Positions 7,368-58,876 of a DNA stretch of 64,000 nt are shown here, in pieces (position 1 is the first letter of the stretch; every line of letters starts with the position of its first letter). Where the stretch lies: positions 2,027,501 through 2,091,500 of the forward strand of contig NZ_CP098511.1 in the NCBI RefSeq assembly GCF_026222555.1, given 5' to 3'. The notes under the pieces were generated by a model. It worked only from the letters and a program-made list of their open reading frames with translations. It did not search any database and was not told the origin of the DNA. A program made the position numbers and the translations under genes. The DNA comes from Aquimarina sp. ERC-38 (GTDB lineage Bacteria; Bacteroidota; Bacteroidia; Flavobacteriales; Flavobacteriaceae).

Positions 7368-7838
7368 TTGACCCATCTTATTGGTACATACGAATGTAAG
7401 GCAGATGCTAAAGGCAGATTAATGCTTCCGGCCGCTTTTAAAAAGCAGTTGGCACCCGTTTTACAAGAGGGTTTTGTACTGAAAAGAGGCGTGTTTCAAC
7501 CCTGTTTGGAATTGTATCCCATGAAAGAATGGAATTTATTAATGCAAAAGATGAATAGGTTGAACAGGTTTAAAAAAAAGAATAATGATTTTATAAGAAG
7601 GTTCACGGCAGGAGTAAAGATGATAGAGATAGATGGAACCGGTCGCTTATTAATTCCAAAAGACTTAATTGTATTTGCCGGAATTACTAAAGAATTGGTT
7701 TTATCCTCAGCAGTGAACATTTTAGAGATATGGGATAAAGATAAATATGAACAGGCAATAGATGATGCAACCTCAGATTTTGCAGATCTAGCTGAAGAAG
7801 TAATGGGATTTGAAGATGATGGTAATGAGTTATCATAA
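7368..7838 (+). CDS. mraZ: MraZ, dcw-operon transcriptional regulator
   Basis: This 156-residue protein has two AbrB-like SpoVT/MraZ half-domains: LIGTYECKADAKGRLMLPAAF near the N-terminus and KMIEIDGTGRLLIPKDLI in the second half. Both contain the D(A/G)xGR(L)xxP motif used for DNA contact. MraZ is the first gene of the dcw cluster and represses it in other bacteria. The first codon is TTG (7368): there is a stop three codons upstream and the residues from MTHLIGTYE fit the family. It overlaps rsmH. Confidence 0.93.
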   Translation: MTHLIGTYECKADAKGRLMLPAAFKKQLAPVLQEGFVLKRGVFQPCLELYPMKEWNLLMQKMNRLNRFKKKNNDFIRRFTAGVKMIEIDGTGRLLIPKDLIVFAGITKELVLSSAVNILEIWDKDKYEQAIDDATSDFADLAEEVMGFEDDGNELS

Positions 7839-8727
7839 TTCGGTATTATTAAAAGATACGGTAGACGGCTTAAATATTCGTCCGGATGGCATATACGTGG
7901 ATGTTACCTATGGGGGAGGTGGTCATTCCAAAGAAATTCTAAGTCGGTTATCTGATACCGGTAAGTTATATGCATTCGATCAGGATGCCGATGCTCAAGA
8001 TAATATCATTGATGATCCCAGATTAGTGCTTATTCCGGAAAATTTCAGGTATATCAAACGTTTTCTACGCCTCTTTGGGATTAAAAAAGTAGATGGTATT
8101 CTGGGAGATTTTGGAGTCTCTTCGCATCAGTTTGACCAGGCCGACCGTGGTTTTTCCACGCGATTTGAAGCCAGATTGGATATGCGAATGAATCAAAATG
8201 ATTCCATATCTGCCATCGAAGTTTTAAATACTTATGAGGAAGAGGGTCTTCGAAAAATGTTTTGGGATTATGGCGAATTAAGAAACGCTCCTAAACTGGC
8301 TCGAACCCTTATTTCAGCCAGAAAAAATAAAACGATTGAAAGTAGTACGGACTTAAAAGAAATTTTACAGGCTTTTTTACCAGCTCATAAAGAACACAAA
8401 ATACTCGCACAAATATTTCAAGCAATACGTATAGAAGTTAATCAGGAAATTCAGGTTTTAAAAGAATTTTTACAGCAAACCCCCGAGTTATTATCTCCGG
8501 GAGGTCGGTTAAGCTTAATCTCCTATCACTCCCTGGAAGACAGATTGGTAAAACGCTACATCCGCAGTGGTTTATTTGAAGGAGAACCTGAAAAAGATGT
8601 TTTTGGAAATATCTCGGTACCCTTTAAAAAAATAAACGGACTGATTGTACCAGGCGTCGAAGAGATTAGACAAAATAATCGGGCCAGAAGTGCCAAGTTG
8701 AGGATAGCAGAACGTATAGCAAATTAA
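7825..8727 (+). CDS. rsmH: 16S rRNA m4C1402 methyltransferase RsmH
   Basis: RsmH (MraW) is a SAM-dependent N4-methyltransferase acting on C1402 of 16S rRNA. The protein is 300 residues from MSYHNSVLL and shows the SAM loop DVTYGGGGHS, the FDQDADA acidic segment, GDFGVSSHQ, and the C-terminal SYHSLEDRLVKR and NNRARSAKLRIAERI motifs. I use the ATG at 7825; the in-frame ATG at 7810 would add MKMMV. It overlaps the mraZ end by 14 bp. Length is normal. Confidence 0.93.
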   Translation: MSYHNSVLLKDTVDGLNIRPDGIYVDVTYGGGGHSKEILSRLSDTGKLYAFDQDADAQDNIIDDPRLVLIPENFRYIKRFLRLFGIKKVDGILGDFGVSSHQFDQADRGFSTRFEARLDMRMNQNDSISAIEVLNTYEEEGLRKMFWDYGELRNAPKLARTLISARKNKTIESSTDLKEILQAFLPAHKEHKILAQIFQAIRIEVNQEIQVLKEFLQQTPELLSPGGRLSLISYHSLEDRLVKRYIRSGLFEGEPEKDVFGNISVPFKKINGLIVPGVEEIRQNNRARSAKLRIAERIAN

Positions 8728-8765
8728 GGGAATAGTAGATAATTAGTAATAGTAAAGTACCCTAC

Positions 8766-9083
8766 GTGAGTATTAAATTTTATGACATATTAAAAGGTAA
8801 TTTCTTAATCGCAGATGATGCCATTAAAAATTGGAGGATGTTATTATTTCTTTCCTTTCTAGCCATTGTTATGATAGCCAGTTCTCATAATGCAGAAAGC
8901 AAGGTGCATCAAATCGCAAAACTAAATAATGAAGTAAGAGAATTACGAACACAGTTTGTAGACGGACGTACCGAACTTATGCAGTTAAAAATGGAGTCTT
9001 CGGTGATTACAAAAATGAATGAAATAGGAATTAGTCGTCCCACGGTTCCGCCTAAAAAAATTATTGTTAAATCAGGTAGCTAA
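8766..9083 (+). CDS. ftsL: FtsL-like cell division protein
   Basis: This 105-residue bitopic protein has a cytoplasmic N-terminus, one membrane helix (MLLFLSFLAIVMIAS, about 25-40) and a periplasmic leucine-zipper-like coiled coil (VHQIAKLNNEVRELRTQF ... ELMQLKME). This is the FtsL topology, and FtsL bridges FtsQ/FtsB to FtsW-FtsI. Sequence similarity is weak, as usual for FtsL, so the call rests on topology and position between rsmH and ftsI. The start is GTG (8766). Its stop codon directly abuts the ftsI start. Confidence 0.85.
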   Translation: MSIKFYDILKGNFLIADDAIKNWRMLLFLSFLAIVMIASSHNAESKVHQIAKLNNEVRELRTQFVDGRTELMQLKMESSVITKMNEIGISRPTVPPKKIIVKSGS

Positions 9084-11078: not shown

Positions 11079-12541
11079 AGTTGTTAAAGGACATACTATA
11101 TAAAGTCAGCCTTGAATCCGTTCAAGGAACTACTGCCGTACCTATAAATGCAATACAGTTTGATTCCCGTAAAGTGAAAGATAATGATGTGTTTGTAGCC
11201 ATAAAAGGAGAAATCTTAAATGGGCACAATTATATAGAAAAAGCAATCGATCAGGGTGCAAAAACAATTATTTGCGAGGAGTTACCAGAACAAACCATAG
11301 AACAGGTTACCTATATTAAAGTTAAAGATAGTCAGCAATCCCTGGCGTTTCTAGCTTCCAATTATTACGACACCCCTTCTGAAAATTTAAAATTGGTAGG
11401 TGTAACAGGAACTAATGGTAAAACTACCATTGCTTCTTTATTATACCAATTGTTTAAAAAGGCTGGTTTTAAAGTAGGATTATTATCTACTGTTAAAATT
11501 GTAGTGGATACTCAGGAATTTCCTGCCACACATACTACTCCGGATTCACTGACCATCAACCGCTACTTATCAGAAATGAATCAAGCCGGAGTCGAATTTT
11601 GTTTTATGGAAGTGAGTTCACATGGAATTGCACAGAAGAGGGTAGAAGGCTTACATTTTGCCGGTGGCGTTTTTACTAATCTATCCCATGATCATCTGGA
11701 CTATCATAAAAGTTTTAAAGAATATCGGGATGTAAAAAAACAATTTTTTGACGGGTTGCCTAAAACTGCATTTGCATTGACAAATGCGGATGATAAAAAT
11801 GGTGATTTTATGTTACAGAATTGCAAAGCTAGAAAATATGCGTATGCCTTAAAAACTTATGCGAATTATCGGGGTAGGATTCTGGAAAATAGTTTGAGCG
11901 GACTTCTATTAAATATTAATGATCGCGAGGTCTGGACAAAGTTGATAGGGGATTTTAACGGGTATAACTTACTAGCAATCTATGGAGTAGCAGATCAATT
12001 GGGATTAGAAACAATGGAAAACCTTCAATTAATCAGTGAATTAAATAGTGTTAGCGGTCGGTTTCAATATCTGATTTCAGATTATCAGAAAATCACCGCA
12101 ATTGTAGATTATGCACATACTCCGGATGCTTTAAAAAACGTATTAGCAACCATTAACAGCATTCGTACCAATAACGAAACCTTAATTACCGTAGTAGGAT
12201 GCGGAGGAGATCGGGATATAGAAAAAAGACCGGTAATGGGCAATATTGCCGCCTCGCTAAGTAATAAAGTGATTTTTACCAGTGATAATCCCAGAACTGA
12301 AGACCCTGTTGCTATTTTGGAACAAATAGAAAACGGAGTATCCCCAAACGATTATAAAAAAGTAGTCACCATTACTGATCGGAAACAGGCGATTAAGACA
12401 GCCTGTCAAATGGCAGAAAAAGAAGATATCATCTTAGTTGCCGGTAAAGGGCATGAAACCTACCAAGAGACTAATGGAGAACGGATTGATTTTGATGATT
12501 TTAAGATTGTAAAAGAAGTATTAAACACCATGGGCAAATAA
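11075..12541 (+). CDS. murE: UDP-MurNAc-L-Ala-D-Glu:meso-diaminopimelate ligase MurE
   Basis: MurE adds the third stem-peptide residue in the cytoplasm using ATP. The 488-residue protein shows the P-loop GVTGTNGKTT (about 109-118), the UDP-binding N-terminal domain (FDSRKVKDNDVFVAIKG), and the C-terminal substrate signature SDNPRTEDP. DNPR marks meso-DAP specificity, as expected for Gram-negative peptidoglycan. ATGA overlap with ftsI suggests coupled translation. Length is normal. Confidence 0.95.
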   Translation: MKLLKDILYKVSLESVQGTTAVPINAIQFDSRKVKDNDVFVAIKGEILNGHNYIEKAIDQGAKTIICEELPEQTIEQVTYIKVKDSQQSLAFLASNYYDTPSENLKLVGVTGTNGKTTIASLLYQLFKKAGFKVGLLSTVKIVVDTQEFPATHTTPDSLTINRYLSEMNQAGVEFCFMEVSSHGIAQKRVEGLHFAGGVFTNLSHDHLDYHKSFKEYRDVKKQFFDGLPKTAFALTNADDKNGDFMLQNCKARKYAYALKTYANYRGRILENSLSGLLLNINDREVWTKLIGDFNGYNLLAIYGVADQLGLETMENLQLISELNSVSGRFQYLISDYQKITAIVDYAHTPDALKNVLATINSIRTNNETLITVVGCGGDRDIEKRPVMGNIAASLSNKVIFTSDNPRTEDPVAILEQIENGVSPNDYKKVVTITDRKQAIKTACQMAEKEDIILVAGKGHETYQETNGERIDFDDFKIVKEVLNTMGK

Positions 12542-12578
12542 ACAAAAGCACAAAAAACCAAAATAAAACAACCACCTT

Positions 12579-13808
12579 ATGTTATATTATTTATTTGAAT
12601 ACTTAGAAAAAACGTACCAGTTTCCAGGTGCCTCTTTGTTTCAGTTTATAACATTTCGGGCAGCGTTAGCTATCTTCTTCTCCTTACTAATTTCTATTGT
12701 TTACGGAAAACGTATTATCAACTATTTACGTAAAAAACAAATGGGGGAAAGCATTCGGGATTTAGGATTGGAAGGTCAGAAGGAAAAAGCAGGTACACCT
12801 ACCATGGGAGGGGTCATCATTATTATGGCTACTTTAATTCCGGTATTACTATTTGCTAAAATTGATAATATCTACATTCTATTACTAATAATTACCACTT
12901 TATGGATGGGGGTTATTGGATTTTTAGATGATTATTTAAAGATAAAGAAAAGAGATAAAGCGGGCCTGGCTGGTAAATTTAAAGTGATCGGACAAGTGGG
13001 TCTTGGAATAATCGTGGGATGTGTAATGTATTTTCACGAAGATATTACCATTCGGGAAGAAAAAGCTAATGCGGATACCGCCCTGGTAGAAAATTCGCCG
13101 GAAATTCCTGATTTTAAACCAGCAGTAAAGTCTTTAAAAACAACCATACCTTTTGTAAAAAATAACGAATTTGATTACGCAGCCGTCATGGCATGGATTC
13201 ATCCTTCCCTCAAAACATACGTTTGGTTATTATTTATTCCTGTAGTTATATTAATTGTAACTGCGGTATCTAATGGAGCAAACCTTACTGATGGAATTGA
13301 CGGATTAGCCGCGGGATCATCTGCAATCATTGTACTAACCTTGGCTTTATTTGCCTGGGTATCTGGGAACAGTATTTTTTCAGATTACCTAAACGTAATG
13401 TATATTCCAAATTCTGGGGAAATGACCATATTTATTACGGCTTTTACCGGGGCTTTGGTTGGTTTCTTATGGTACAACACCTATCCCGCCCAAGTATTTA
13501 TGGGAGATACGGGTAGTTTGACTATTGGTGGAATTATTGCTGTGATTGCCATCGCCATTCGAAAAGAGTTTTTAATCCCTATTTTCTGCGGAATCTTTTT
13601 TATAGAAACGCTATCCGTAATGATGCAGGTAAGCTGGTTTAAGTATACCCGTAAAAAATATGGGGAAGGCCGAAGGATATTTTTAATGTCTCCGCTACAT
13701 CATCATTACCAAAAAAAAGGAATCCACGAGAGTAAAATAGTAGCTCGATTCTGGATCATCGGTATATTTTTAGCCTTATTAGCCATTATTACCTTAAAAG
13801 TAAGATAA
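12579..13808 (+). CDS. mraY: Phospho-MurNAc-pentapeptide transferase MraY
   Basis: MraY transfers phospho-MurNAc-pentapeptide to undecaprenyl phosphate, making lipid I in the inner membrane. The 409-residue polytopic protein has the conserved GTPTMGGV, the Mg-binding [23 protein letters not shown] and GDTGSL motifs and the HHHY segment near the C-terminus. Between about residues 155 and 210 there is a hydrophilic insertion ([16 protein letters not shown]...), which explains why it is longer than the E. coli enzyme; such insertions are common in Bacteroidota. Confidence 0.95.
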
Positions 13809-18951: not shown

Positions 18952-19664
18952 AGAGAATGATGCAGTTTCTAAAAATGATGGTACTTATCGTTGTACTAGG
19001 CGGTATGTATGCTTTCGCTGATCAGCGGAACAAAAATCGAAGAGTAAAAGATTTACAAATAAAGTTTGTGGATCAACAAGACCCCTATCTTAATGAATTA
19101 TCCGTTGATAAATTGTTAATACAAAATCAAATCGGAGTTGCAAATATTGGCAAAGAAATTCTAGCTTTGAACAACGCCGAAGCCGCCTTAGATGCCCATC
19201 AACTTATTGAAGAATCTGATGTGTATGTCTCTGTAAACGGACAACTTAACGCCATAATTAAACAAAAAACACCGATAGCAAGAGTAGATGCAAGTACTCC
19301 TTATTACATAGATATTACCGGAAAACGAATGCCTTTATCTCAAAGTTATACGGCGCATGTACCTATGGTATATCAAGTGTCAGAGATGGAGGTGCCCGAA
19401 GTTTATAAATTGGTAAAACAGATATGGCAGGATGAATTTTTAAAAAAGCATATAACTGACATTTCAAGAATATCAGCACATACCTATGAATTAGGAATCA
19501 GGGCACTGGACTTTAAGGTAGTTGTAGGAACAGCAGAAAACCTGGAAGAAAAGTTTAAAAACTTTAAAGCTTTTTATCAAAAAGCGGTAAAAGATAAGAG
19601 TTTAGAAAAATATAGTAAAGTGAATTTAGCATTTAAGAATCAAGTGGTTTGCACCCTTAAATAA
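18948..19664 (+). CDS. ftsQ: FtsQ-like cell division protein
   Basis: This 238-residue bitopic protein has a short basic cytoplasmic N-terminus, one membrane helix (MMVLIVVLGGMYAFA, about 9-24) and a periplasmic domain. That domain resembles the FtsQ beta-domain: ARVDASTPYYIDITGKRMPLS corresponds to the segment usually reading xDxxGxxf. The POTRA-like part is weakly conserved. Identification relies on topology, this motif and its location between murC and ftsA. FtsQ scaffolds FtsL and recruits the septal synthase. Confidence 0.87.
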   Translation: MKRMMQFLKMMVLIVVLGGMYAFADQRNKNRRVKDLQIKFVDQQDPYLNELSVDKLLIQNQIGVANIGKEILALNNAEAALDAHQLIEESDVYVSVNGQLNAIIKQKTPIARVDASTPYYIDITGKRMPLSQSYTAHVPMVYQVSEMEVPEVYKLVKQIWQDEFLKKHITDISRISAHTYELGIRALDFKVVVGTAENLEEKFKNFKAFYQKAVKDKSLEKYSKVNLAFKNQVVCTLK

Positions 19665-45124: not shown

Positions 45125-45988
45125 TTAGCCTAAATAAGTTTTTAAAATTTTACTACGTGAAGTATGCTTTAAACGTCTGATTGCCTTCTCTTTAATTTGC
45201 CGAACTCTTTCACGGGTCAGATCAAAGGTTTCTCCGATTTCTTCGAGGGTCATCGGATGTTGATCTCCTAATCCAAAATATAACCGAATTACATCTGCTT
45301 CTCTGGGGGTAAGGGTTTCCAGAGCTCTTTCAATTTCTGTCCGTAAAGATTCATGTAATAAAGAACGATCAGGATTAGGTGATTCACCAGAATTTAAAAC
45401 ATCGTATAGATTAGAATCTTCACCTTCTACAAGAGGAGCATCCATACTTACATGGCGTCCTGAATTTTTCATGGATTCCTTAACATCGTTAATGGTCATA
45501 TCCAACTCTTTTGCAATCTCTTCTGCACTTGGCGGACGTTCATGAGATTGTTCTAAAAAAGCATAGGTTTTATTAATTTTATTAATAGACCCAATTTTAT
45601 TTAAAGGTAGACGAACAATTCTGGATTGTTCTGCCAATGCCTGTAAGATAGATTGTCTGATCCACCATACGGCGTAGGATATAAATTTAAAACCTCGGGT
45701 TTCATCAAATCGCTTTGCAGCTTTAATCAGACCTAGGTTCCCTTCATTGATTAAATCCGGAAGTGTTAATCCCTGATTTTGATATTGTTTGGCTACCGAT
45801 ACTACAAAACGTAAATTCGCTTTTGTTAGTTTTTCTAAAGCACGTTCATCACCAGCTTTAATACGCTGTGCTAATTCTACTTCTTCATCAGCCGTAATCA
45901 GGTCTACCTTCCCAATCTCTTGTAGATATTTATCCAGGGATGCAGTTTCCCGGTTGGTAACCTGCTTTGTAATCTTTAGCTGTCTCAT
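45125..45988 (-). CDS. rpoD: Primary sigma factor RpoD (SigA)
   Basis: This 287-residue sigma-70 protein is the short Bacteroidota form, lacking region 1.1 and the non-conserved spacer. Region 1.2 is [25 protein letters not shown]; region 2 has [58 protein letters not shown]; region 3 follows; region 4 has [15 protein letters not shown] and the helix-turn-helix [27 protein letters not shown]. It directs recognition of TAnnTTTG/TTG promoters. It is divergent from the protease array. Confidence 0.95.
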
Positions 45989-46181: not shown

Positions 46182-48590
46182 ATGAAAAAAAACACAAATT
46201 TAATTTGGACATTCATGTTCATTCTAACGGTAAGCGTATGTTCTTCCGGATTAGCACAAAATCAAAATCCTAAAACTCCAACTGAAGAACTTCTGAATTA
46301 TTATAGGTTGTATAAAGAAAGAATTCAAAACAACAATCTTCAAAAAAAGAATGCAATAGGTAAGGAGTCATATAATATGCCTTTGGGAGTTAACCCTTAT
46401 ACCAGTTATTTTTCCGATAAAGGAAGTGCTGAACAATGGAGTAGGTATTATTATGAAATAGCACAAGCCAAAAACAAAAGTACACTTAGTAGAAAAATGA
46501 ATATTGCTACTTTTAATGAGAAGGAAAGGCCAGGGGAAAATCTAAATGACACGAGCGATAACTCAGAATTTATTTCGAATTTCGGGAGTGGTCCAGATGA
46601 TACAAATACATTTTTAATCAATGGTAACTTAGGCCCGGAAGAAAAACCTAAAACAGATTTACAAATATTTGAAACCGAAGAAGACAATGGTTCTATTCCC
46701 CTGGCGAATCCTATAGATCTTCCGGAACCTATCACTAACTATAATACAAGGGCCAGAATTGGAGATGGCCCGCAAGGATCAGAAAACGGGGGTAACGGCG
46801 ATTTTGATTTTTACAAAGTTTCTTTACAAGAAGCAGAGCTGGTACAATTCAGTATTTTAGCAACCGATTCTATTCCGTTTAATCCGGCAGTTCTTATTTA
46901 CAACGAAGAAGGAGAGATATTAAGGTTTGGATTTTCATTAACAAGACCTCAGATTTCTCTTGAATTTATCCCTCCTGTTGCAGGTACTTATTACTTTGGG
47001 GTATATGATTTTGAAACTTTATTTCAAACCATACCTTTTCAACCTTTTAATTCGGATTCAGGAGGAGGCGTAGTATTAGAAGGTAATTACATATTGCAAC
47101 TTGGCTATTTTGGCAAAATTACAGATAGGGATTTCTATTCATTTTCACTTAAAAAAGGGGATGTGTTTGGGGTAGCTATTGACGGAATTACCAGAACAAA
47201 TACCAACCTGTTTCTGACAGATGATAACCTGGGAGCGGGAACTCGTAATTTTACCAATTTTCAAACTCAAGGTTCCCCCTTACCGGATAACGGAGAAACT
47301 ACGCTGTCTTATGTAATTCCTGAAGATGGTGACTATACCTTGTCCATTGGCACATCTGTAGGTCCGTACACCGCAGAGATTCTGGCTACTAGGTCCGGAT
47401 TAGAGACTAATAATAAAGGAAAAAAACAAATAGTCTACTTAGATTATACGGGGTCAGAATTTAATCAAAGGGCATTTTTTAATGTTCCGGATACAATTGG
47501 GGTTAACGATGATGTTATAAACCAGGAACGTTTTTTATCTCCGTTTGAGGATTTTCTGGAAAATTGGGGGATTGAAAATACAACTTTAAACCGGGTACGG
47601 TTGATTCATGAAATTGATAAAGTAGTTAAAGAAAAGCTTAAACAGGAATTAAGAGAAAAAGGAATCAATCCCGGTCTTGATATATTAATACTTAGTGATT
47701 TAGGTAGTGATTTCTTAGGGAATACGATACCAAAGATTCTAAATAAAGCAAATATTCCATTTAGTAAAGTAATTGTAGGAGGTACTATTGAAGAATCCGG
47801 TATACGGACTATTGGTATTGCTAATGAAATTGACAGTGGAAATTTTAGTATTGAAGACGAAGCTCTAGTACTATTGGATCTATTAAGTAATACGGACCCT
47901 GAAGATCCTAATTCTATTAATAATATACCACGTGCGGATAATGTACCTATTGAAGAATTAGTAGCGGTTGTTGTTGGAAATGTAATTGCTCATGAAATTG
48001 GACACTATTTAGGAAACTACCATACTAATGCTGCTAATGACGTCTTTTCTATTATGGATGAAGGAGGTAACCTTAACGGAATAGCAGGCGTAGCCGGTGA
48101 AGCTGCATTTGGTGATGAGAGTACAGTAGATGTTATGTTTAGCAAAGATGCTTATAGCCTAGCCGAAGCTTTTCTCCCGGGAGGTTCAGACCAGACGGAT
48201 GTAAATACTGCTTTTGCGCTAAGTTTTATTCCTTTTGGAAGAAAAAGCTCGGATGATAGTACGATAAAGGAAATATTAGCTTTAGAAAATCAGGTGTTAA
48301 ATGATCTCCAAGAAGTAGTAAGCACGGAAATATTAAGTTATCCTAATCCGCAATCGACTTCAGGTATTGCTTCCTTACAATTAGGAACTGAGGTATACGG
48401 AGCTACTAAAGTTACAATACTTGATATCCATGGGAGAACCGTTCAAACGGTATTTGATGGGGTTATTAAGAAAGGAGAAAATAAAGAAATCATCACGGAT
48501 GCTCAAAACTTAAACTTATCTCGTGGCGTGTACACTTATGCTATAAAATCAAATAATAAAACCTTTTCTCATAAGTTTGTAGTGAATTAA
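46182..48590 (+). CDS. T9SS-secreted metzincin-like metalloprotease, tandem copy 1
   Basis: This 802-residue protein has a signal peptide (about 1-25). A helical pro-region follows (about 30-110: YNMPLGVNPYTSYFSDKG), then two PPC-like beta-sandwich domains (about 190-310, GDFDFYKVSL ... AGTYYFGVYDFE; about 318-395, DFYSFSLKKGDVFGVAIDG). The catalytic domain begins with KKQIVYLDYTG and carries HEIGHYLGNYH at residues 604-614 and a Met-turn SIMDEG. A type A T9SS sorting domain (about 725-802) closes it. The HExxHxxGxxH motif plus Met-turn define a metzincin; no MEROPS family is assigned with certainty. First of three paralogues. Confidence 0.85.
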   Translation: MKKNTNLIWTFMFILTVSVCSSGLAQNQNPKTPTEELLNYYRLYKERIQNNNLQKKNAIGKESYNMPLGVNPYTSYFSDKGSAEQWSRYYYEIAQAKNKSTLSRKMNIATFNEKERPGENLNDTSDNSEFISNFGSGPDDTNTFLINGNLGPEEKPKTDLQIFETEEDNGSIPLANPIDLPEPITNYNTRARIGDGPQGSENGGNGDFDFYKVSLQEAELVQFSILATDSIPFNPAVLIYNEEGEILRFGFSLTRPQISLEFIPPVAGTYYFGVYDFETLFQTIPFQPFNSDSGGGVVLEGNYILQLGYFGKITDRDFYSFSLKKGDVFGVAIDGITRTNTNLFLTDDNLGAGTRNFTNFQTQGSPLPDNGETTLSYVIPEDGDYTLSIGTSVGPYTAEILATRSGLETNNKGKKQIVYLDYTGSEFNQRAFFNVPDTIGVNDDVINQERFLSPFEDFLENWGIENTTLNRVRLIHEIDKVVKEKLKQELREKGINPGLDILILSDLGSDFLGNTIPKILNKANIPFSKVIVGGTIEESGIRTIGIANEIDSGNFSIEDEALVLLDLLSNTDPEDPNSINNIPRADNVPIEELVAVVVGNVIAHEIGHYLGNYHTNAANDVFSIMDEGGNLNGIAGVAGEAAFGDESTVDVMFSKDAYSLAEAFLPGGSDQTDVNTAFALSFIPFGRKSSDDSTIKEILALENQVLNDLQEVVSTEILSYPNPQSTSGIASLQLGTEVYGATKVTILDIHGRTVQTVFDGVIKKGENKEIITDAQNLNLSRGVYTYAIKSNNKTFSHKFVVN

Positions 48591-48933: not shown

Positions 48934-51342
48934 ATGAAAAAAAGTACCAATTTAGTTTGGACACTCGTGTTCATGCTAACCTTAAGTACATTCTATTCCG
49001 GATTTGCACAAATTCAAAATTCTAGAACAAAAGCTGAAGAATTCCGAAACTATGTTAGGCTGTATAAACAAGAAAAACAGAATCGTCTTCAAAAAAAGAG
49101 TTCAGAAAGTAAAGAGTCCTATCAAATGCCTCTTGGGGTTAATCCTTTTACCAGTTATCTTTCAAACAAAGGAAATGCCCGGCAATGGAGCAAGTATTAC
49201 TATGATCTTGCACAAGCGAAGAAAAGAACTAAGCTAGGTAAAAAAAGAAGTATGGCTACTTTTACCGAAAAAGAGGAACCAGGTAAAAACCTAAATGACA
49301 CTATTTCTAGTGCAGAACCTATTCCTAATTTCGGAAGTAGTCAAAATAATACTAATGAGTTTCAAATCAACGGAATTTTGGACAGGGAAGTAGGTCCTGA
49401 TTTTAACTTTGAATTTTTTGATAGCGAAGAAGATAATGGTTCCATTCCTTTAGCTACGCCTATTGAGCTTTCAGAGCCTCTTACTGATTTTGTAACGCAA
49501 GCTAGAATTGGAGATGGTCCACAAGGAGCTGCTAGTGGGGGTAATGGAGATTTTGATTTTTATAAAGTTTCATTAAAGGAAACAGAATTAGTAGAACTTT
49601 CTGCTTTGTCATTAGATACTACGGCTATACGTCTTATTATCCTTGTATTTAATGAGCAAGGAGAAGAGTTGGATTTTTCTTTTCCGGCAGCTATAACTTT
49701 TATAGATTTCATAGCTCCGGCTACAGGTAATTATTATTTTGCTGTATATGACTTTGAAACTCTGATTGGATCAGAATCAGAAACAGAACCTCTTCAACCC
49801 TTTGATTCAGCTTCAGGTGGCGGAGTTGTATCAGAAGGGGATTACCAATTTCAACTGACTTATTACGGTGAAACTCCAGATACGGATTTTTATTCCTTTT
49901 CACTTAAAAAAGGAGATGTGTTTGGGATTGCTATCGATGGGATTACGCCTACAAATACCAGTTTATTTTTAGATGATAATGATTTAGGGATCGGTACTCG
50001 ATTCTTTCAAAATTTTTTAACTCAGGAATCACCCTTACCTGATGATGGATTTACTTCTTTTTCCTACGTAATTCCTGAAGACGGTGATTATAAGCTATCT
50101 ATCGGTGGATCGGTTGGTTCTTATACAGCAGAAATTATTGCTAGCAGACCAGGATTTGAAACTAATAAGAAAGGACAAAAACAGATTATATACCTAGATT
50201 ATACCGGAGCTAAAACTACCCAAAAAGAACTTCTTGATATTCCTGATAGTATTGCAGTAGGTAATGAGGAGGTAAATAGAATACGGCTTTTATCTCCATT
50301 TGAAGATTTTCTTACTAACTGGGGAGTTGAAAATACAACCTTAAACCGGGTACGGTTAATTTATGAAATTGATAAAGTAGTTAAAGAAAATTTGAAAAAG
50401 GAACTAAAGGAACAATGGATCAATCCGGATCTTGATGTGTTAATACTTAGTGATCTTGGGAGTAATTTTCTAGGAGATAACATTCCAAAAATCTTAAATA
50501 GGGCTAATATTTCTTTTAGTAAAGTCATTGTGGGAGGTACCATCGAAGAATCCGGTATAGAAACTCTTGGTATTGCCAGTGCAATTGATATTGGGAACTT
50601 TAGTTTTGAGGATCAGGCTTTAGTATTGTTAGATGAATTAAGTAATGTAAATCCCGATAATCCAAATTCTATTAACAATATACTTCGTACAGATGATGTA
50701 CCTATCGAAGAATTAGTTACGGTTGTTTTAGGAAATGTAATTGCTCACGAGATTGGCCATTATCTAGGAAATTTTCATACTTCTAACGAGAACGATGTAT
50801 TTTCCATTATGGATGAAGGTGGTAATATAAATGGTCTTGCCGGAATTACAGATGGAGCTTTTGGCGATTCTAATACGGTAAACGTAGATTTTGCTAAAGA
50901 TGTTTATAGTAATTTTGAAGGTTTTTTTCCGGAAGGATCTAATCAAACAGATGTAAATACCGCTTTTGCATTAGGTTTTGTTCCCTTTGGAAGAAAAAGT
51001 TCGTATGATAAGACCATTCCGGAATTACTGGCTTTAGAAAACCAAGTGTTAAACGAATTACAGGAAGTGGTAAGTGAAGAAATATTAAGTTATCCTAATC
51101 CACAATCAGTTTCCGGAACAGCTAGCTTACAACTAGGTACGGAGGTATATGGAGCTACTAAAGTAATGGTACTTGATATGCATGGAAGAACCATTCAAAC
51201 CGTATTTGATGGAGTTATTAACCAAGGAGAGAATAAAGTAATTACCACAGATGCTCAAAACTTAAACTTATCTCGTGGGATGTATACTTATGCTATAAAA
51301 TCAAATAATAAAACCTTTTCTCATAAGTTTGTAGTTAACTAA
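48934..51342 (+). CDS. T9SS-secreted metzincin-like metalloprotease, tandem copy 2
   Basis: This paralogue has 802 residues with the same architecture: signal peptide ending SGFAQ, pro-region YQMPLGVNPFTSYLSNKG, two PPC-like domains, catalytic domain from KKGQKQIIYLDYTG, HEIGHYLGNFH starting at residue 605, Met-turn SIMDEG, and T9SS type A domain. It differs from the others by substitutions spread over the PPC domains. From about 51049 onwards, however, its DNA is about 98% identical to copy 3. Substrate specificity differences are possible but not readable from sequence. Confidence 0.85.
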   Translation: MKKSTNLVWTLVFMLTLSTFYSGFAQIQNSRTKAEEFRNYVRLYKQEKQNRLQKKSSESKESYQMPLGVNPFTSYLSNKGNARQWSKYYYDLAQAKKRTKLGKKRSMATFTEKEEPGKNLNDTISSAEPIPNFGSSQNNTNEFQINGILDREVGPDFNFEFFDSEEDNGSIPLATPIELSEPLTDFVTQARIGDGPQGAASGGNGDFDFYKVSLKETELVELSALSLDTTAIRLIILVFNEQGEELDFSFPAAITFIDFIAPATGNYYFAVYDFETLIGSESETEPLQPFDSASGGGVVSEGDYQFQLTYYGETPDTDFYSFSLKKGDVFGIAIDGITPTNTSLFLDDNDLGIGTRFFQNFLTQESPLPDDGFTSFSYVIPEDGDYKLSIGGSVGSYTAEIIASRPGFETNKKGQKQIIYLDYTGAKTTQKELLDIPDSIAVGNEEVNRIRLLSPFEDFLTNWGVENTTLNRVRLIYEIDKVVKENLKKELKEQWINPDLDVLILSDLGSNFLGDNIPKILNRANISFSKVIVGGTIEESGIETLGIASAIDIGNFSFEDQALVLLDELSNVNPDNPNSINNILRTDDVPIEELVTVVLGNVIAHEIGHYLGNFHTSNENDVFSIMDEGGNINGLAGITDGAFGDSNTVNVDFAKDVYSNFEGFFPEGSNQTDVNTAFALGFVPFGRKSSYDKTIPELLALENQVLNELQEVVSEEILSYPNPQSVSGTASLQLGTEVYGATKVMVLDMHGRTIQTVFDGVINQGENKVITTDAQNLNLSRGMYTYAIKSNNKTFSHKFVVN

Positions 51343-51381
51343 TATCCTGAATGGATAAAATGCTTTTATCAGCTAAAAAAC

Positions 51382-51412
51382 AACAACGCCTTCAAATTTT
51401 GAAGGCGTTGTT
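51382..51412. terminator. Terminator after protease copy 2
   Basis: AACAACGCCTTCAAA and TTTGAAGGCGTTGTT form a 15-bp near-perfect hairpin. It is identical to the hairpin at 54186-54216, where it separates protease copy 3 from pnp. Confidence 0.85.
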
Positions 51413-51436
51413 TGCTTCATGTTAAAAGGAAATAAA

Positions 51437-51567
51437 CTAGTCCCTTCTTCTATTTTCACGAGGCTTACGGTCGTTTCCTCTTTTATTACGATCATTATTC
51501 CGGTCTCTGGGAGGTCGTTCTGTATAACCTTCCGGCTTAGGTAGAATAGCTTTACGAGAAACCTTCT
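51437..51567 (-). pseudogene. Relic of the 3' end of pnp
   Basis: About 131 bases, read on the minus strand, encode the last 43 residues of polynucleotide phosphorylase (from [14 protein letters not shown] to the stop). They match the functional gene at 54241-54371 with one difference (Lys to Arg before the last residue). Identity ends abruptly near 51567, where unrelated AT-rich DNA starts. There is no start codon or upstream gene body, so it is a duplication scar. Confidence 0.92.
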
Positions 51568-51746
51568 TTGCGAATTTTTAAATAAAAAAGGCTAATTAAA
51601 AAAGAAATCTTATAAGTATTATAAATATTTTACTAAAATGTATTTCGTTTTTAAATTTTTGTCAAAGTTTATAGTTTTCCATATTAATAAAAAAAGAAAA
51701 GCTATATTGATGTTAGATAAAACACTCACTTCTAAATCACTACGAA

Positions 51747-54146
51747 ATGAAAAAAAGTACAAATTTTGTCTGGATACTAGTATCCATTTTATCCTTAGGC
51801 GTATTTTCTTCAGGATTTTCACAAACTCAGATTGAAGAAACTCCGGCAGGAAGAGATTTGATGAATTATATTAATAGGTACAAAGAGAAAAAACAAAATA
51901 ACCTTCAAAAAAAGAATTTTTCAGAGACAGATTCTTATCAAATGCCACTAGGGGTAAACCCTTTTACCAGTTACTTTTCAAAACAAGGGAGTACTCGACA
52001 ATGGAATGAGTATTATTATGAATTAGCAAAAGCTAAAAATAAAGGAAAGCTTCGTTCAAAAATGAGCACGGTCAATTTTAACGAAAATGAAAGTGCAGGA
52101 CAAAACTTAAATGATGCTATTGAAAATGCAGAAACTATTTCCAATTTTGGAAGTAGTAATGATGAAGCAAACACCGTATTTATAAATGGTACTTTAGCTT
52201 TAGAAGAAGTTCCTGACTTTTCTTTTCAGGTATTTGAAACTGAAGAGGATAATGGTGCAATTCCTTCAGCTAGTTTGATTGATCTTCCCGAACGTTTTGC
52301 TTTTTATTTTACAGAAGCAACTATAGGAGATGGTCCTCAAGGATCGGTTAACGGAGGTAATGGTGATTTTGATTTTTATAAAGTCACATTAGAAGAGTCA
52401 GAATTAACGCAGGTCATAGCCCAAGCAACAGATTCCATACCTATTAATCTAGCACTAATTATTTATAATGAACAAGGTCAAATTTTAGATTTTGATGTTC
52501 GACCTACACCTCAAACCGTTATTGAATTCATAGCTCCTGAAGCTGGTAACTATTACTTTGCTATTTATGAGTTTGAAACTTTATTTGGGGCACTGCCATT
52601 AAATCCTTTCGATCCTACTTCGGGGGGTGGGGCTGTAAATGAAGGTTCTTATGCACTGCAACTTAGTTATTTTGGCGAAACCCCAGATACGGATTCTTAT
52701 TCTTTTTCCCTTAAAAAAGGAGACGTATTTGGAGTAGCAATTGACGGAGTATTAAGGACAACTGCAAGTCTTTTTTTAAGTGACAATACCCCTGGGATTA
52801 GTACTCGTGACTTTACTAATTTTTTATCTCCTAATTCTCCTCTACCATCTAATGGGCAAACTACTTTATCTTATGTGATCCCGGAAGATGGAAATTACAC
52901 ATTATCTATCGGTAGTTCCCTAGGACCTTATACCGCAGAAATTCTTTCTTCTCGACCAGGGCTGGAAGCTAATAGTATAGGAAAGAAGCAATTAATTTAC
53001 TTAGATTATACAGGTTCAGAGTTTGTACAAAGAGAATTTTTTAGGGTTCCTGATACAATTTCAGTTAATGATCCGGTATTGAATCAAGAACGTTTCTTAT
53101 CTCCATTTGAAGATTTTCTTACTAACTGGGGAATTGAAAATAATACATTCAACCGAGTACGTTTGATTCACGAGATTGATAAAGTTGTAAAAGAAAATTT
53201 AAAACAAGAATTACGTGAGAAAGGCATTAATCCAGAGCTCGATGTATTAATATTCAGTGATCTAGGTAGTGATTTTCTAGGTGATAGAATACCTAGTATT
53301 TTAAACCGGGCCGGAATTCCATTTAGTACTGTTATCGTAGGAGGTACCATTGAAGAATCAGGTATAGGAACTATTGGTATTGCAAATGAAATTGATAGTG
53401 GCAATTTTAGTATTGATGATCAAGCTTTAGTATTGTTAGATGAGTTAAGTAATGTAGATCCCAATAATCCAAATTCTATTAATAATATTCCTCGAGCAGA
53501 TAATGTCCCTATTGAAGAATTAATTGAAGTTGTCCTAGGAAATGTGATCGCTCACGAAATTGGGCATTATCTTGGAAATTATCATACTACTAATTCTAAT
53601 GAAGTATTTTCCATTATGGATGAAGGTGGTAATATAAATGGTCTTGCCGGGATTACAGATGGAGCTTTTGGTGATGCAAATACAGTTAATGTAGATTTTG
53701 CTAAAGATACTTATAGCTTAAATGAGTCTTTTAGTCCTTTAGGAATTGATCAAACAGATGTAAATACTGCTTTTGCTTTAAGTTTTATTCCCTTTGGAAG
53801 AAAAAGTTCAGATAATGTCACTACTGAGATTTTAGCTTTAGAAAATCAAGTATTAAACGAATTACAGGAAGTGGTAAGTACGGAAATAGTAAGTTATCCT
53901 AATCCACAATCAGCTTCCGGAACAGCTACCTTACAACTAGGTACGGAGGTATATGGAGCTACTAAAGTAATGGTACTTGATATGCATGGAAGAACCATTC
54001 AAACCGTATTTGATGGAGTTATTAACCAAGGAGAGAATAAAGTAATTACCACAGATACTCAAAACTTAAACTTATCTCGTGGGATGTATACTTATGTTAT
54101 AAAATCAAATAATAAAACCTTTTCTCATAAGTTTGTAGTTAACTAA
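51747..54146 (+). CDS. T9SS-secreted metzincin-like metalloprotease, tandem copy 3
   Basis: This third paralogue has 799 residues: signal peptide ending SGFSQ, pro-region YQMPLGVNPFTSYFSKQG, two PPC-like domains, catalytic domain from KKQLIYLDYTG, HEIGHYLGNYH starting at residue 603, Met-turn SIMDEG, and T9SS type A sorting domain. Its upstream DNA shares the GAAAAGCTAT-TTG segment and a TTTTGTCAAA block with copy 1, so promoter elements were duplicated too. Its 3' end and terminator are almost the same as copy 2. It converges on pnp. Confidence 0.85.
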   Translation: MKKSTNFVWILVSILSLGVFSSGFSQTQIEETPAGRDLMNYINRYKEKKQNNLQKKNFSETDSYQMPLGVNPFTSYFSKQGSTRQWNEYYYELAKAKNKGKLRSKMSTVNFNENESAGQNLNDAIENAETISNFGSSNDEANTVFINGTLALEEVPDFSFQVFETEEDNGAIPSASLIDLPERFAFYFTEATIGDGPQGSVNGGNGDFDFYKVTLEESELTQVIAQATDSIPINLALIIYNEQGQILDFDVRPTPQTVIEFIAPEAGNYYFAIYEFETLFGALPLNPFDPTSGGGAVNEGSYALQLSYFGETPDTDSYSFSLKKGDVFGVAIDGVLRTTASLFLSDNTPGISTRDFTNFLSPNSPLPSNGQTTLSYVIPEDGNYTLSIGSSLGPYTAEILSSRPGLEANSIGKKQLIYLDYTGSEFVQREFFRVPDTISVNDPVLNQERFLSPFEDFLTNWGIENNTFNRVRLIHEIDKVVKENLKQELREKGINPELDVLIFSDLGSDFLGDRIPSILNRAGIPFSTVIVGGTIEESGIGTIGIANEIDSGNFSIDDQALVLLDELSNVDPNNPNSINNIPRADNVPIEELIEVVLGNVIAHEIGHYLGNYHTTNSNEVFSIMDEGGNINGLAGITDGAFGDANTVNVDFAKDTYSLNESFSPLGIDQTDVNTAFALSFIPFGRKSSDNVTTEILALENQVLNELQEVVSTEIVSYPNPQSASGTATLQLGTEVYGATKVMVLDMHGRTIQTVFDGVINQGENKVITTDTQNLNLSRGMYTYVIKSNNKTFSHKFVVN

Positions 54147-54185
54147 TATCCTGAATGGATAAAATGCTTTTATTAGCTAAAAAAC

Positions 54186-54216
54186 AACAACGCCTTCAAA
54201 TTTTGAAGGCGTTGTT
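54186..54216. terminator. Shared terminator of protease copy 3 and pnp
   Basis: AACAACGCCTTCAAA and TTTGAAGGCGTTGTT pair into a long stem between convergent genes, usable on both strands; identical to 51382-51412. Confidence 0.85.
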
Positions 54217-54240
54217 TGCTTCATGTTAAAAGAAAATAAA

Positions 54241-56457
54241 CTAGTCCTTTCTTCTATTTTCACGAGGCTTACGGTCGTTTCCTCTTTTATTACGATCATT
54301 ATTCCGGTCTCTGGGAGGTCGTTCTGTATAACCTTCCGGCTTAGGTAGAATAGCTTTACGAGAAACCTTCTCTTTACGGGTTCTGGAATCAATACCAAAA
54401 TATTTGACATCAAAAACATCACCCATTTTTACTACATCACTTACATTCTCAGTGCGTTCCCAAGCGAGTTCAGATACATGTAGCAATACTTCATTACCCG
54501 GAGCATCCAGGTATTCTACCACTGCACCAAAGTCAAGCATTTTAATAACCTTTACTTCATATACGCTTCCTACTTCTGGTTTAAATGTGATAGAATCGAT
54601 TTTTGCTAATACTTTATCAATACCGTTCTGATCAGTTCCCAGAATTTCTACTAATCCTTCTTCGGTTACCGGATCTTCGTTAATTACAATAGTCGTATTT
54701 GTTTCTTTTTGAAGTTCTTGTATAACTTTTCCACCCGGTCCGATCAATGCACCGATATACTCTCCAGGGATCTTAGTCGTTACCATTTTAGGAGCATGTG
54801 CTTTTACATCCGAATTAGGTTGAGCAATGGTATCTATTAATTTCTCTAAAATATGTAATCTTCCTGCGGCTGCTTGTTTTAAGGCATTTACCAGGATTTC
54901 ATACGATAAGCCTTTGACCTTAATATCCATTTGACAGGCAGTAATTCCGTCTGCAGTACCGGTTACTTTAAAGTCCATATCTCCCAGGTGATCTTCATCT
55001 CCCAAAATATCACTTAATACTGCGTATTCGCCTGATTCTCCGTCTGAAATCAGTCCCATGGCAATACCAGAAACCGGTTTTTTTAACTGAACCCCAGAAT
55101 CCATCAAAGCCATTGTTCCTGAACAAACCGTAGCCATAGAAGAAGAACCGTTAGATTCTAATACTTCAGAAACTACACGAACCGTATACGGACAATCCTC
55201 GGGGATCATTCCTTTTAAAGCACGTTGCGCCAGGTTACCATGTCCCACTTCTCGTCTGGAGGTACCCCGGATCGGACGTGCCTCACCCGTAGAGAAAGGG
55301 GGGAAGTTATAATGCAAATAAAATGTTTCTTCTCCTTCATAAGAAGGCATATCAATTTGGTTGGCTTCTCGCGAAGTACCCAGGGTAACAGTAGCTAAAG
55401 CTTGCGTCTCTCCACGGGTAAAAATCGCCGAACCATGTGTAGAAGGTAAATAATCCACTTCACACCAGATAGGCCTGATTTCATCCGGTTTACGGCCGTC
55501 TAATCGAAGTCCTTCTTTTAAGGTAAGGTCGCGAACCGCTGCTTTTTCTGCTTTGCGGTAATATTTGGAAACCAACTCTCCAAAATCTTCTAATTCTTCT
55601 TCAGAAAAAGTTTCTTTAATTTCTTCTTTAATTTCAGAGAAAGCTAAACCTCTTTCTTTCTTTCCATGTCCACCTTTGGCAACCGCATAAACTTTGTCAT
55701 AAGCCATTTGGTGGATTTTCTTTTCTAATTCTTCATCTTCTCGTTCCGGGTCGTACTCTCGAACCTCTTTTTTACCAAAAGCTTCTGCTAGCTTAAGTTG
55801 TGCTTCACATTGCTTTTTGATATGTTCATGAGCGAATTTAATGGCTTCCACCATTTCTTCTTCGCTAATTTCTTTCATTTCTCCCTCAACCATCATTACA
55901 GAATCTGCGGATGCTCCGATCATCATATCAATATCGGATGCTTCTAATTGCTCTCGGGTAGGATTGATGATAAACTCACCATTTACCCGTCCGACCCTTG
56001 CTTCGGAAATAGCACATTCAAACGGAAAATCCGAAAGCTGAATAGCTGCAGAAGCTGCTAATCCGGCCATAGCATCCGGCATTACATTTTCATCATGAGA
56101 CATTAATTGAATCATGACTTGTGTTTCAGCATGATAATCTTTAGGAAATAAAGGACGTAATACACGATCTACTAATCGCATGGTCAATACCTCTCCATCA
56201 CTAGGCCGGGCTTCTCTTTTAAAGAACCCCCCGGGATATCTTCCTGAAGCTGCAAACTTTTCCCTGTAATCTACTGTAAGTGGTAAAAAATCAACGTCGC
56301 TCTGTTTGTAATTAGATACTACTGTACAAAGTAGCATACACTTACCAGACTGAACCACTACAGATCCGTGTGCCTGCTTTGCCAGTTTACCGGTTTCAAT
56401 AGAAATTTCTCTCCCATCACCGAGGTCGATAACCTCGCGATATACCTTTGGAATCAT
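54241..56457 (-). CDS. pnp: Polyribonucleotide nucleotidyltransferase (PNPase)
   Basis: This 738-residue phosphorolytic 3'-5' exoribonuclease has two RNase PH-like domains. The second has [15 protein letters not shown], the [14 protein letters not shown] segment and the [11 protein letters not shown] loop near the catalytic site. These are followed by a KH domain (about 560-615, [16 protein letters not shown]) and an S1 domain (about 625-695, [22 protein letters not shown]). The Arg/Asn-rich tail ([21 protein letters not shown]) is a probable RNA-binding extension. It lies downstream of rpsO in the conserved rpsO-pnp order, with a 203-bp spacer containing a terminator. Confidence 0.95.
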
Positions 56458-57286: not shown

Positions 57287-58876
57287 ATGAAATCAACTAA
57301 CCTTACCCTTCTTTTTTGTTTTTTATACACCGGTATTTTCTACGGGCAACAAATTAAAGATACACCCACCCGGAACTGCGCTGCGGTAGAATATCTTAAT
57401 AAAAAATTAGAAGATAATCCAAAATTATTAGTAAAAAAGGCCGCAATAGAAGCCGAAGTTCAGAAAAACATAAAAAGCCTGAACAAAAGTATTGACGGAC
57501 AAATTATTACCATACCGGTAGTTGTGCATGTATTGTACAATACGCCACAACAAAACATTAGCGATGCACAGGTTTTATCTCAAATCGAAGTATTGAATGA
57601 AGATTTTAGGAGGTTAAATAGTGATCGTGATAATGTATGGTCACAAGCTGCGGATGTTCAGATAGAGTTTTGCCTGGCACAGGTAGATCCTAATGGAAAT
57701 CCTACAAACGGGATTATTCGTAAGGCTACAAATGTAAGAGGTTTCAGTGGTGAAAATATGAAGTTTGATTCCAGTGGTGGATCTAATGCCTGGCCTACTG
57801 ATCAATATATGAATATGTGGACGGCCAATTTTGCCCGTAGCGGGTTATTAGGTTTTGCCCAGTTTCCCGGATTAGGACCGGATGCTACGGATGGGGTGGT
57901 GATGGCTCCGCAATACTTTGGAAGCAGTGCCAAAGGAAACGGGTTCTTTTTGCGGGCACCTTTTGATTTAGGAAGAACGACAACGCATGAGGTTGGACAC
58001 TTTTTAGGATTGCCTCATATTTGGGGTGATGGTAATTGCTCAAGAGATGACGGGATTAATGATACCCCTAATGCTAGCGGTCCTAGCGGAGGTTGCCCGA
58101 TCGGTGCATCAAGTTGTGGTAGTTTAAATATGGTACAAAACTACATGGATTATTCAGATGACGGATGTATGAACTTATTTACGAGAGGACAGAAGAACCG
58201 TATGAGAGCCTTTTTACTAGGTAACGGATTCCGGGCAAAATTAGCACAATCTACTCGTTGTTCAAAAGATGCAGTAATAGATCCTGATCCTAAACCAGGA
58301 TGTAGTGATGTACGCCTATCTTTTACTTTTGATAGCTATCCGGAAGATATTTCTTTTGAAATTAAAAATAGCAATGGAAACGTAGTTGCCAGTGGAGGTC
58401 CTTATACAGATCAAAATGCCGGAGCTTCTCTTAGTATTACCGAATGTTTGAATAACGCTTGTTATGAGTTGGTAATTACAGATTCCTTTGGGGATGGTTT
58501 GTGTTGTCAATATGGTCAAGGCTCTTATGAACTAGTAGGTAAAGATGGTACGGTCTTAGCTTCAGGTGCTGCTATTGGTAGTGGGGAGGCTACAGCTTTC
58601 TGTTTAGGTACAACTACTAATGTAATTAGTAATAGTAGTGCAAGAACAACTGAAACTGAGATTACACTATATCCAAATCCTGTTTTTGATACTGAAATCA
58701 ATATAAACGGAGCTATATTAGGCGATCCGTATCAGATCATCAGCTTACAAGGACGTATCTTATCCAGTAGCACTTTAGATAATACAACACTTAATGTAGG
58801 TAATCTTACACCGGGTATGTATATTTTAAAAATTGGTAAAGATTTTTCTAACACCATACCTTTTGTAAAAAAATAA
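57287..58876 (+). CDS. Secreted M43 (pappalysin-like) zinc metalloprotease with T9SS domain
   Basis: This 529-residue protein has a signal peptide (about 1-20) and a short pro-region rich in Lys. The M43 catalytic domain (about 70-320) includes VVVHVLYNTPQQNISDAQVLSQIEVLN, the zinc motif HEVGHFLGLPH at residues 234-244, and the Met-turn MVQNYMDYSDDGCMNLFT. A beta-sandwich with cysteines follows (about 345-440: VRLSFTFDSYPEDISFEIKN ... DSFGDGLCC), then a T9SS type A domain. Cytophagalysin-type enzymes of this family degrade extracellular protein. It is unrelated in detail to the three tandem proteases. Confidence 0.9.
   Translation: MKSTNLTLLFCFLYTGIFYGQQIKDTPTRNCAAVEYLNKKLEDNPKLLVKKAAIEAEVQKNIKSLNKSIDGQIITIPVVVHVLYNTPQQNISDAQVLSQIEVLNEDFRRLNSDRDNVWSQAADVQIEFCLAQVDPNGNPTNGIIRKATNVRGFSGENMKFDSSGGSNAWPTDQYMNMWTANFARSGLLGFAQFPGLGPDATDGVVMAPQYFGSSAKGNGFFLRAPFDLGRTTTHEVGHFLGLPHIWGDGNCSRDDGINDTPNASGPSGGCPIGASSCGSLNMVQNYMDYSDDGCMNLFTRGQKNRMRAFLLGNGFRAKLAQSTRCSKDAVIDPDPKPGCSDVRLSFTFDSYPEDISFEIKNSNGNVVASGGPYTDQNAGASLSITECLNNACYELVITDSFGDGLCCQYGQGSYELVGKDGTVLASGAAIGSGEATAFCLGTTTNVISNSSARTTETEITLYPNPVFDTEININGAILGDPYQIISLQGRILSSSTLDNTTLNVGNLTPGMYILKIGKDFSNTIPFVKK

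Follow-up and report, generated by a model that had tools for sequence, protein, structure and literature searches.

The window analysed here is a 64,000-nucleotide stretch of the Aquimarina sp. ERC-38 genome (positions 2027501-2091500 of a 4.43-Mb single-contig genome, G000 in our searches). On its minus strand lies an open reading frame that we take, from its protein sequence, to be rpoD. It is followed by three tandem genes on the plus strand, here called P1, P2 and P3, and then by pnp on the minus strand. A segment that joins the 3′ end of P2 or P3 to an intergenic terminator and the 3′ end of pnp occurs twice in this array. The features of the locus, in window coordinates, are as follows:

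45125..45988, minus strand: rpoD, from the list of open reading frames
46182..48590, plus strand: P1, a tandem gene for a T9SS-sorted protein with a PPC domain and an HExxHxxGxxH motif
48934..51342, plus strand: P2, of the P1 family, with a 3′ end common to P2 and P3
50799..50855, plus strand: second tract of P2/P3 identity, inside the coding region (1 mismatch in 57 bases at an offset of 2807; P = 2e-4)
51049..51567, no strand assigned: block copy adjoining P2 and ending in an orphan pnp tail (11 mismatches in 519 to 53853-54371)
51343..51436, no strand assigned: copied intergenic stretch with the hairpin terminator (2 mismatches in 94)
51437..51567, minus strand: orphan pnp 3′ tail, a relic (1 mismatch in 131 to 54241-54371)
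51623..51746, plus strand: region upstream of P3, a homologue of the one upstream of P1 (70% alike across 124 bases, E 7e-18)
51747..54146, plus strand: P3, of the P1/P2 family, convergent with pnp
53853..54371, no strand assigned: block copy adjoining P3 and continuous with intact pnp, located by own-genome search and alignment
54241..56457, minus strand: intact pnp (polyribonucleotide nucleotidyltransferase), with the Pfam domains RNase_PH, RNase_PH_C, PNPase, KH_1 and S1, all above cut-off

In each of P1, P2 and P3, PPC and T9SS sorting domains score above cut-off, the latter with both PF18962 (30.6, 28.1 and 29.2, respectively; cut-off 27) and TIGR04183 (30.7, 32.3 and 35.3; cut-off 23). 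The Por_Secre_tail domain occupies residues 720-801 of P2 and 717-798 of P3, inside the duplicated block. Each gene also has one HExxHxxGxxH motif, which we take to suggest a protease. The original prediction called these genes proteases, and because of the motif in each the label is a fair guess from sequence. However, no curated protease model passes its cut-off on P1-P3 (TIGR03952, TIGR03935 and NF038113 score far below), and no Pfam protease domain is found in them at E 1e-3. A search for relatives among solved structures gave a closest match with E 0.42, and a search with the putative protease confirmed no named relatives. Among the 66 genomes of the genus, the best match outside its own genome is 49% identical (G052), with G024 at 48%. 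Beyond pnp, at 57287-58876 of the window, lies a further T9SS-sorted gene, which has a Peptidase_M43 domain.

Pairwise alignment of 51049-51567 with 53853-54371 gives 519 columns without gaps and 11 mismatches (~98% identity), which is precisely the gap-free match with about 11 differences that had been counted by eye in the original prediction. The mismatches are at 51076, 51077, 51078, 51085, 51110, 51125, 51253, 51293, 51370, 51429 and 51444, so that 6 fall within the 77 bases of 51049-51125, 2 within the 217 bases of the rest of the coding end (51126-51342), 2 within the 94 intergenic bases and 1 within the pnp tail. The core of the block, 51126-51567, has 5 mismatches in 442 bases (98.9% identity). 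Under a binomial model with 25% divergence, the identity of the block has a P of about 1e-48. What it contains also agrees with the prediction: the gene ends that encode the T9SS sorting domain in P2 and P3, then a hairpin terminator, then the terminal part of pnp. The hairpin region, 51340-51430, folds at -28.2 kcal/mol (z -5.2), and the intergenic terminator stretch is 84-86% alike to the terminator region of P1 over 51 bases. In a search of the genome against itself, at the threshold used, the whole 519 bases occur at these two places only. P1 matches bases 1-361 of the block at 82%, and beyond the two blocks and P1 the search returned only two inverted hairpin stretches inside the blocks.

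The orphan pnp tail comprises the pnp stop codon, 42 sense codons and 2 further bases, and matches pnp residues 695-738 at 93%. The genome contains one full pnp, and the other two pnp matches in it are this relic and an S1-only match. Since pnp is the only full source in the genome, the tail presumably moved from pnp, which would have served as an unchanged donor, and the earlier argument is sound in holding that the tail must derive from a segment next to pnp. The intergenic region between P1 and P2 yielded no pnp-like match. The two edges of the block, both placed correctly at the outset, differ in character. To the left, identity fades within coding sequence common to P2 and P3 (about 51050-51125). 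To the right, it stops abruptly at 51567/51568, inside pnp, with 74 of the next 100 bases differing, and the P3 upstream region starts after 55 bases past this edge. A Smith-Waterman comparison of the 180 bases right of the edge with pnp gave a chance-level score (P 0.41). In a narrower test that allowed a small offset, the 19 bases that follow a 2-base gap agree with pnp at 12 positions (P 0.026 against shuffles and 0.037 against AT-matched pieces of the genome). Because this test was devised post hoc, with the sequence already inspected, the stretch is only a hint of an older, decayed relic that may continue past 51567.

The block is far more alike than the rest of the two genes. In windows of 100 columns, P2 and P3 are 60-76% identical before 50522, 82% identical at 50522-50621 and 79-86% identical between 50622 and the block, against about 98% within it. 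Over whole genes, dS is 0.83 for P2/P3, 1.22 for P1/P2 and 1.38 for P1/P3. In windows of 50 codons, dS between P2 and P3 ranges from 0.94 to 2.09 up to codon 550, is about 0.5 at codons 550-700, falls to 0.26 at codons 700-750 and reaches 0 in the last 50. The bodies of P2 and P3 are old paralogues and P3 is therefore not a recent whole-gene copy. Had the whole gene been copied recently, identity would be even throughout; the recent event was thus limited to the 3′ end. A recent tandem duplication of all of P2 or P3 together with the pnp tail, and nothing else, would account for the tail and for the common terminator. However, it is refuted as the sole event by the contrast between the gene bodies, where dS is about 1-2 up to codon 550, and a block that has diverged by 1-2%, and we give it next to no credence.

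Exchange between the paralogues was examined at 899 variable sites with 10,000 shuffles. Sites at which P2 equals P3 cluster at 51102-51395 (P = 1e-4) and again in the second tract listed above, at 50799-50855, and the same test gave no significant tract for P1-P2 or P1-P3. Because the two tracts are separate, P2 and P3 have exchanged sequence more than once, and the second tract together with the lower dS at codons 550-700 calls for a separate, earlier P2/P3 exchange. The original prediction had left two origins open. Homogenisation of the 3′ end is favoured by these tracts and by the mosaic relatives in genome G009 described below, while recent tandem duplication of a whole gene is not supported, given the divergence of the gene bodies.

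We consider it probable, at roughly 0.6, that the 3′ end of P3, the terminator and the end of pnp were copied recently and in one direction onto the 3′ end of P2, as a patch within an old tandem array. The event would have started by homologous recombination in P2/P3 coding sequence, at the left edge, and would have closed at 51567/51568 by a non-homologous join of pnp to the P3 upstream region. Two routes could lead there. In the first, one-sided strand invasion would be followed by copying from the sister chromosome and closure by end joining. In the second, a tandem duplication of the segment running from P3 through the terminator to the pnp tail would be followed by homologous recombination between P2 and the new P3, deleting the intervening sequence. 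The two routes yield the same product and cannot be told apart here. In either case P2 would have retained its T9SS signal and terminator, and the scrap of pnp would be inert. The recent patch is supported by the step in identity at the block, by the fall of dS to 0 at the 3′ end, by the confinement of significant tracts to the P2-P3 pair and by the sharp right edge, as well as by similar structures elsewhere in this genome and in G009, set out below. Against it as the sole event stand the second tract and the dip in dS at codons 550-700, which need the earlier exchange, and the pnp-like 12 of 19 bases past the edge hint at a relic older than the patch.

The main rival builds on that hint. The pnp tail could have been left behind when P2 and P3 first duplicated, and gene conversion since then could have homogenised the 3′ end, relic included, up to the limit of homology. 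Repeated exchange between P2 and P3, as seen in the two tracts, and the weakly pnp-like sequence past the edge are both consistent with this account. However, the end of the conversion tract must then coincide almost exactly with the limit of the relic, and the wider test past the edge detects no residual homology. We regard an old, refreshed relic as unlikely, though with enough in its favour to be taken seriously.

For comparison, other repeats were sought in 464 kb of the same genome, in which 31 near repeats were found, open reading frames were examined for repeats of at least 100 bases, and five repeats were examined closely. Across these 464 kb we saw no further block extending into the tail of a convergent neighbour. 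Of the five, however, two resemble scars of gene tails, namely the 57-codon and the 127-base repeats described next. Two large tandem genes, which by eye look like nonribosomal peptide synthetase modules, share 1366 identical bases (L283:4250-5615 and 7648-9013; G000:C1:2275750-2277115 and 2279148-2280513), and this pair is in line with a recent patch at P2. A 57-codon piece of a gene for 185 amino acids is repeated 1.8 kb away without the remainder of the gene, with 13 mismatches in 172 bases (L267:6012-6183 and 7822-7993; G000:C1:1893512-1893683 and 1895322-1895493). An intergenic repeat of 215 bases, 96.7% identical and near two large tandem genes (G000:C1:2213932-2214146 and 2221863-2222076; L280, L281), may be a similar scar. 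Finally, a gene that encodes a DDE transposase domain lies between direct repeats of 127 bases that differ at 1 position (L267:17548-17674 and 19326-19452; G000:C1:1905048-1905174 and 1906826-1906952). They include the last 43 bases of a codirectional neighbouring gene, and look like an unusually long target-site repeat. These repeats, which carry a gene tail around a transposase gene, lend some plausibility to a duplication made at the 3′ end of pnp by an integrase or transposon whose mobile gene has since been lost. However, among open reading frames of at least 80 amino acids, the sole one between the two pnp blocks is P3; none there encodes an integrase or transposase, and the space is occupied by a full paralogue of the neighbouring genes. 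A mobile element therefore strikes us as very improbable.

How often pnp leaves such tails was surveyed at two levels. In the genus, 65 of the 66 genomes searched with pnp gave a match, and 63 loci, including the window and that of G009, were scanned at the DNA level; no usable pnp 3′ end was available in G020, G046 or G055, and the sequence downstream was short at some loci (only 128 bases in L068). Relics were present in the window and in G009 only, and a 66-base match of 70% in L134 (E 4e-5) was taken as chance. In the family, 382 of 397 genomes had a pnp match, and a search that would miss relics too short or decayed for E 1e-9 found relics in G000 and G297. At E of 1e-9 or below, nine genomes had two pnp matches (G000, G075, G203, G297, G306, G341, G376, G388 and G457), and the eight other than G000 were searched again together with G009. 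The second match in G203 is a full-length pnp frame; that of G341 was put down to overlap in the assembly, its sequence having 99 bases identical to the end of the pnp contig of that genome; and in G075, G306, G457, G376 and G388 the second matches are S1-domain matches of 35-37% in other long frames. The two full-length frames of G203 lie on different contigs (L102, L110), are 78% and 73% identical to the query, and represent either a second gene or contamination. No relic was found at E 1e-6 among the 80 best-matching named loci listed, 2 of which had less than 1500 bases downstream and some of which come from the same species as genomes in our set. A search with P3 itself across 143 pnp loci in other genomes did not find it in any.

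The analogue in G009, a member of the same genus, closely resembles the block. In L067, 10053-10750 repeats 12050-12749 at 96.9% identity by blastn, and the repeat runs from the 3′ end of a different convergent gene through a hairpin resembling a terminator into the tail of pnp. The tail copy is 371 bases long, has 2 mismatches and stops sharply within pnp. The convergent gene is frameshifted in the copy beside the relic and truncated in the copy beside pnp, and between the copies lies a gene without a Pfam match, perhaps a beta-barrel on reading its sequence. Seven further loci, of which two are the same contig, have relatives of both genes close together downstream of pnp, in an order that varies. 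The simplest account of the G009 repeat is a tandem duplication that reached into pnp and was followed by decay. G009 also has two tandem relatives of P1-P3 (L019/L024, C189). Their alignment is 99-100% identical in its first 400 columns and 95-99% identical in its last 500, and windows in the middle range from 71% to 98%. Because this tandem pair is mosaic, patchy homogenisation of the P1-P3 family is not peculiar to the window. The other copies in G009 (C113, C193 and C189:136284) are without a comparable near-identical partner.

In G297, from another genus, pnp is followed by a gene for a hybrid histidine kinase of 914 residues and then by a relic of the pnp tail (L119:10071-10314). This relic has an internal deletion, with 177 bases at 92.7% and 79 bases at 91.1%, and is more diverged than those of G000 and G009. 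Relatives of the kinase gene (at least 40% identical) lie just after pnp in L191 and, on the opposite strand, in L213. The distance between the two core genes pnp and rpoD, readable at 50 of the 63 genus loci (L124-L183), ranges from 207 bases to 13.2 kb, being below 1.1 kb in 16 loci and between 2.2 and 13.2 kb in 34. The gene content of this interval therefore varies within the genus. The variable interval, and the order of intact pnp, extra gene and pnp tail that recurs in G297, would suit an acquisition of P3 from another strain. In that case, incoming DNA with P3, the terminator and pnp would have recombined within pnp and joined illegitimately in the resident tail, leaving that tail beside its old neighbour P2. 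A process of this kind has been proposed for Vibrio T6SS arrays (PMC5361080). However, P3 is a paralogue of its neighbours with an upstream region that matches that of P1, so an outside source is not needed. The gain would also require P2 and P3 to have had a common 3′ end beforehand, and hence more assumptions; we think it quite improbable.

The three relics also raise the possibility, as distinct from a result, that in Flavobacteriaceae segmental copying recurs at the pnp 3′ end and leaves dated scars. The relics of G000, G009 and G297 would then be independent products of one process, in which a neighbouring gene is duplicated or gained through recombination that relies on homology at one end and joins illegitimately, within pnp, at the other. 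Other gene-tail repeats exist in the same genome and pnp may not be special; they make a hotspot less likely and keep the relics from demonstrating one, and we hold this reading to be doubtful.

The block represents a known kind of event, cleanly marked, and amounts to a minor and largely unremarkable scar in the genome. Without the 131 bases from the single-copy pnp, the patch would look like simple gene similarity; with them, its right edge and its probable direction are unusually clear. In tandem T9SS genes the ends can be overwritten even as the bodies stay divergent, and trees built from such gene ends would therefore mislead. The analogues in G009 and G297 suggest that orphan tails of core genes could be searched for systematically, as a measure of such recombination. 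If pnp were indeed a hotspot, orphan tails of single-copy genes could mark the process across genomes.

Several known systems bear comparison with the locus. As in ectopic gene conversion between tandem paralogues (concerted evolution), the tracts are short and bounded, there is more than one of them, and one end of the gene has been homogenised. Identity between the paralogues in excess of chance, the mark of a conversion tract, is found at both 51102-51395 and 50799-50855. Unlike in such conversion, the tract here passes through the terminator into an unrelated, convergent housekeeping gene with one intact copy. Flanking homology is present on the left of the block, and on the right it is at chance level in the wide test (P 0.41) and hinted at in the narrow one (P about 0.03). 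Porphyromonas gingivalis belongs to the same phylum as the source organism. Its surface proteins undergo domain rearrangement and allelic exchange, according to PMC5266723, which compares strains. There, as here, recombination shuffles parts of surface-protein genes, some of them for T9SS-exported proteins, but the units in that work are adhesin and catalytic modules and whole alleles, as opposed to a 3′ end with the tail of an unrelated gene. The parts of the literature available to our search contained no description of a pnp-tail scar. Homology-facilitated illegitimate recombination (PMC3240628, PMC5361080) involves homology at one end, an illegitimate join at the other and orphan 3′ pieces beside new sequence, and the block may resemble it, although the narrow test hints at pnp homology past the right edge. 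The process is described for incoming DNA, whereas here the same chromosome is the simplest source. Lastly, a tandem duplication with a novel joint would produce the junction seen between the pnp tail and the P3 upstream region, which is the joint expected from duplicating the segment of P3, terminator and pnp tail. It differs from the present case in that the gene bodies are old paralogues, so that a further exchange between P2 and P3 is needed to arrive at the arrangement in the window.
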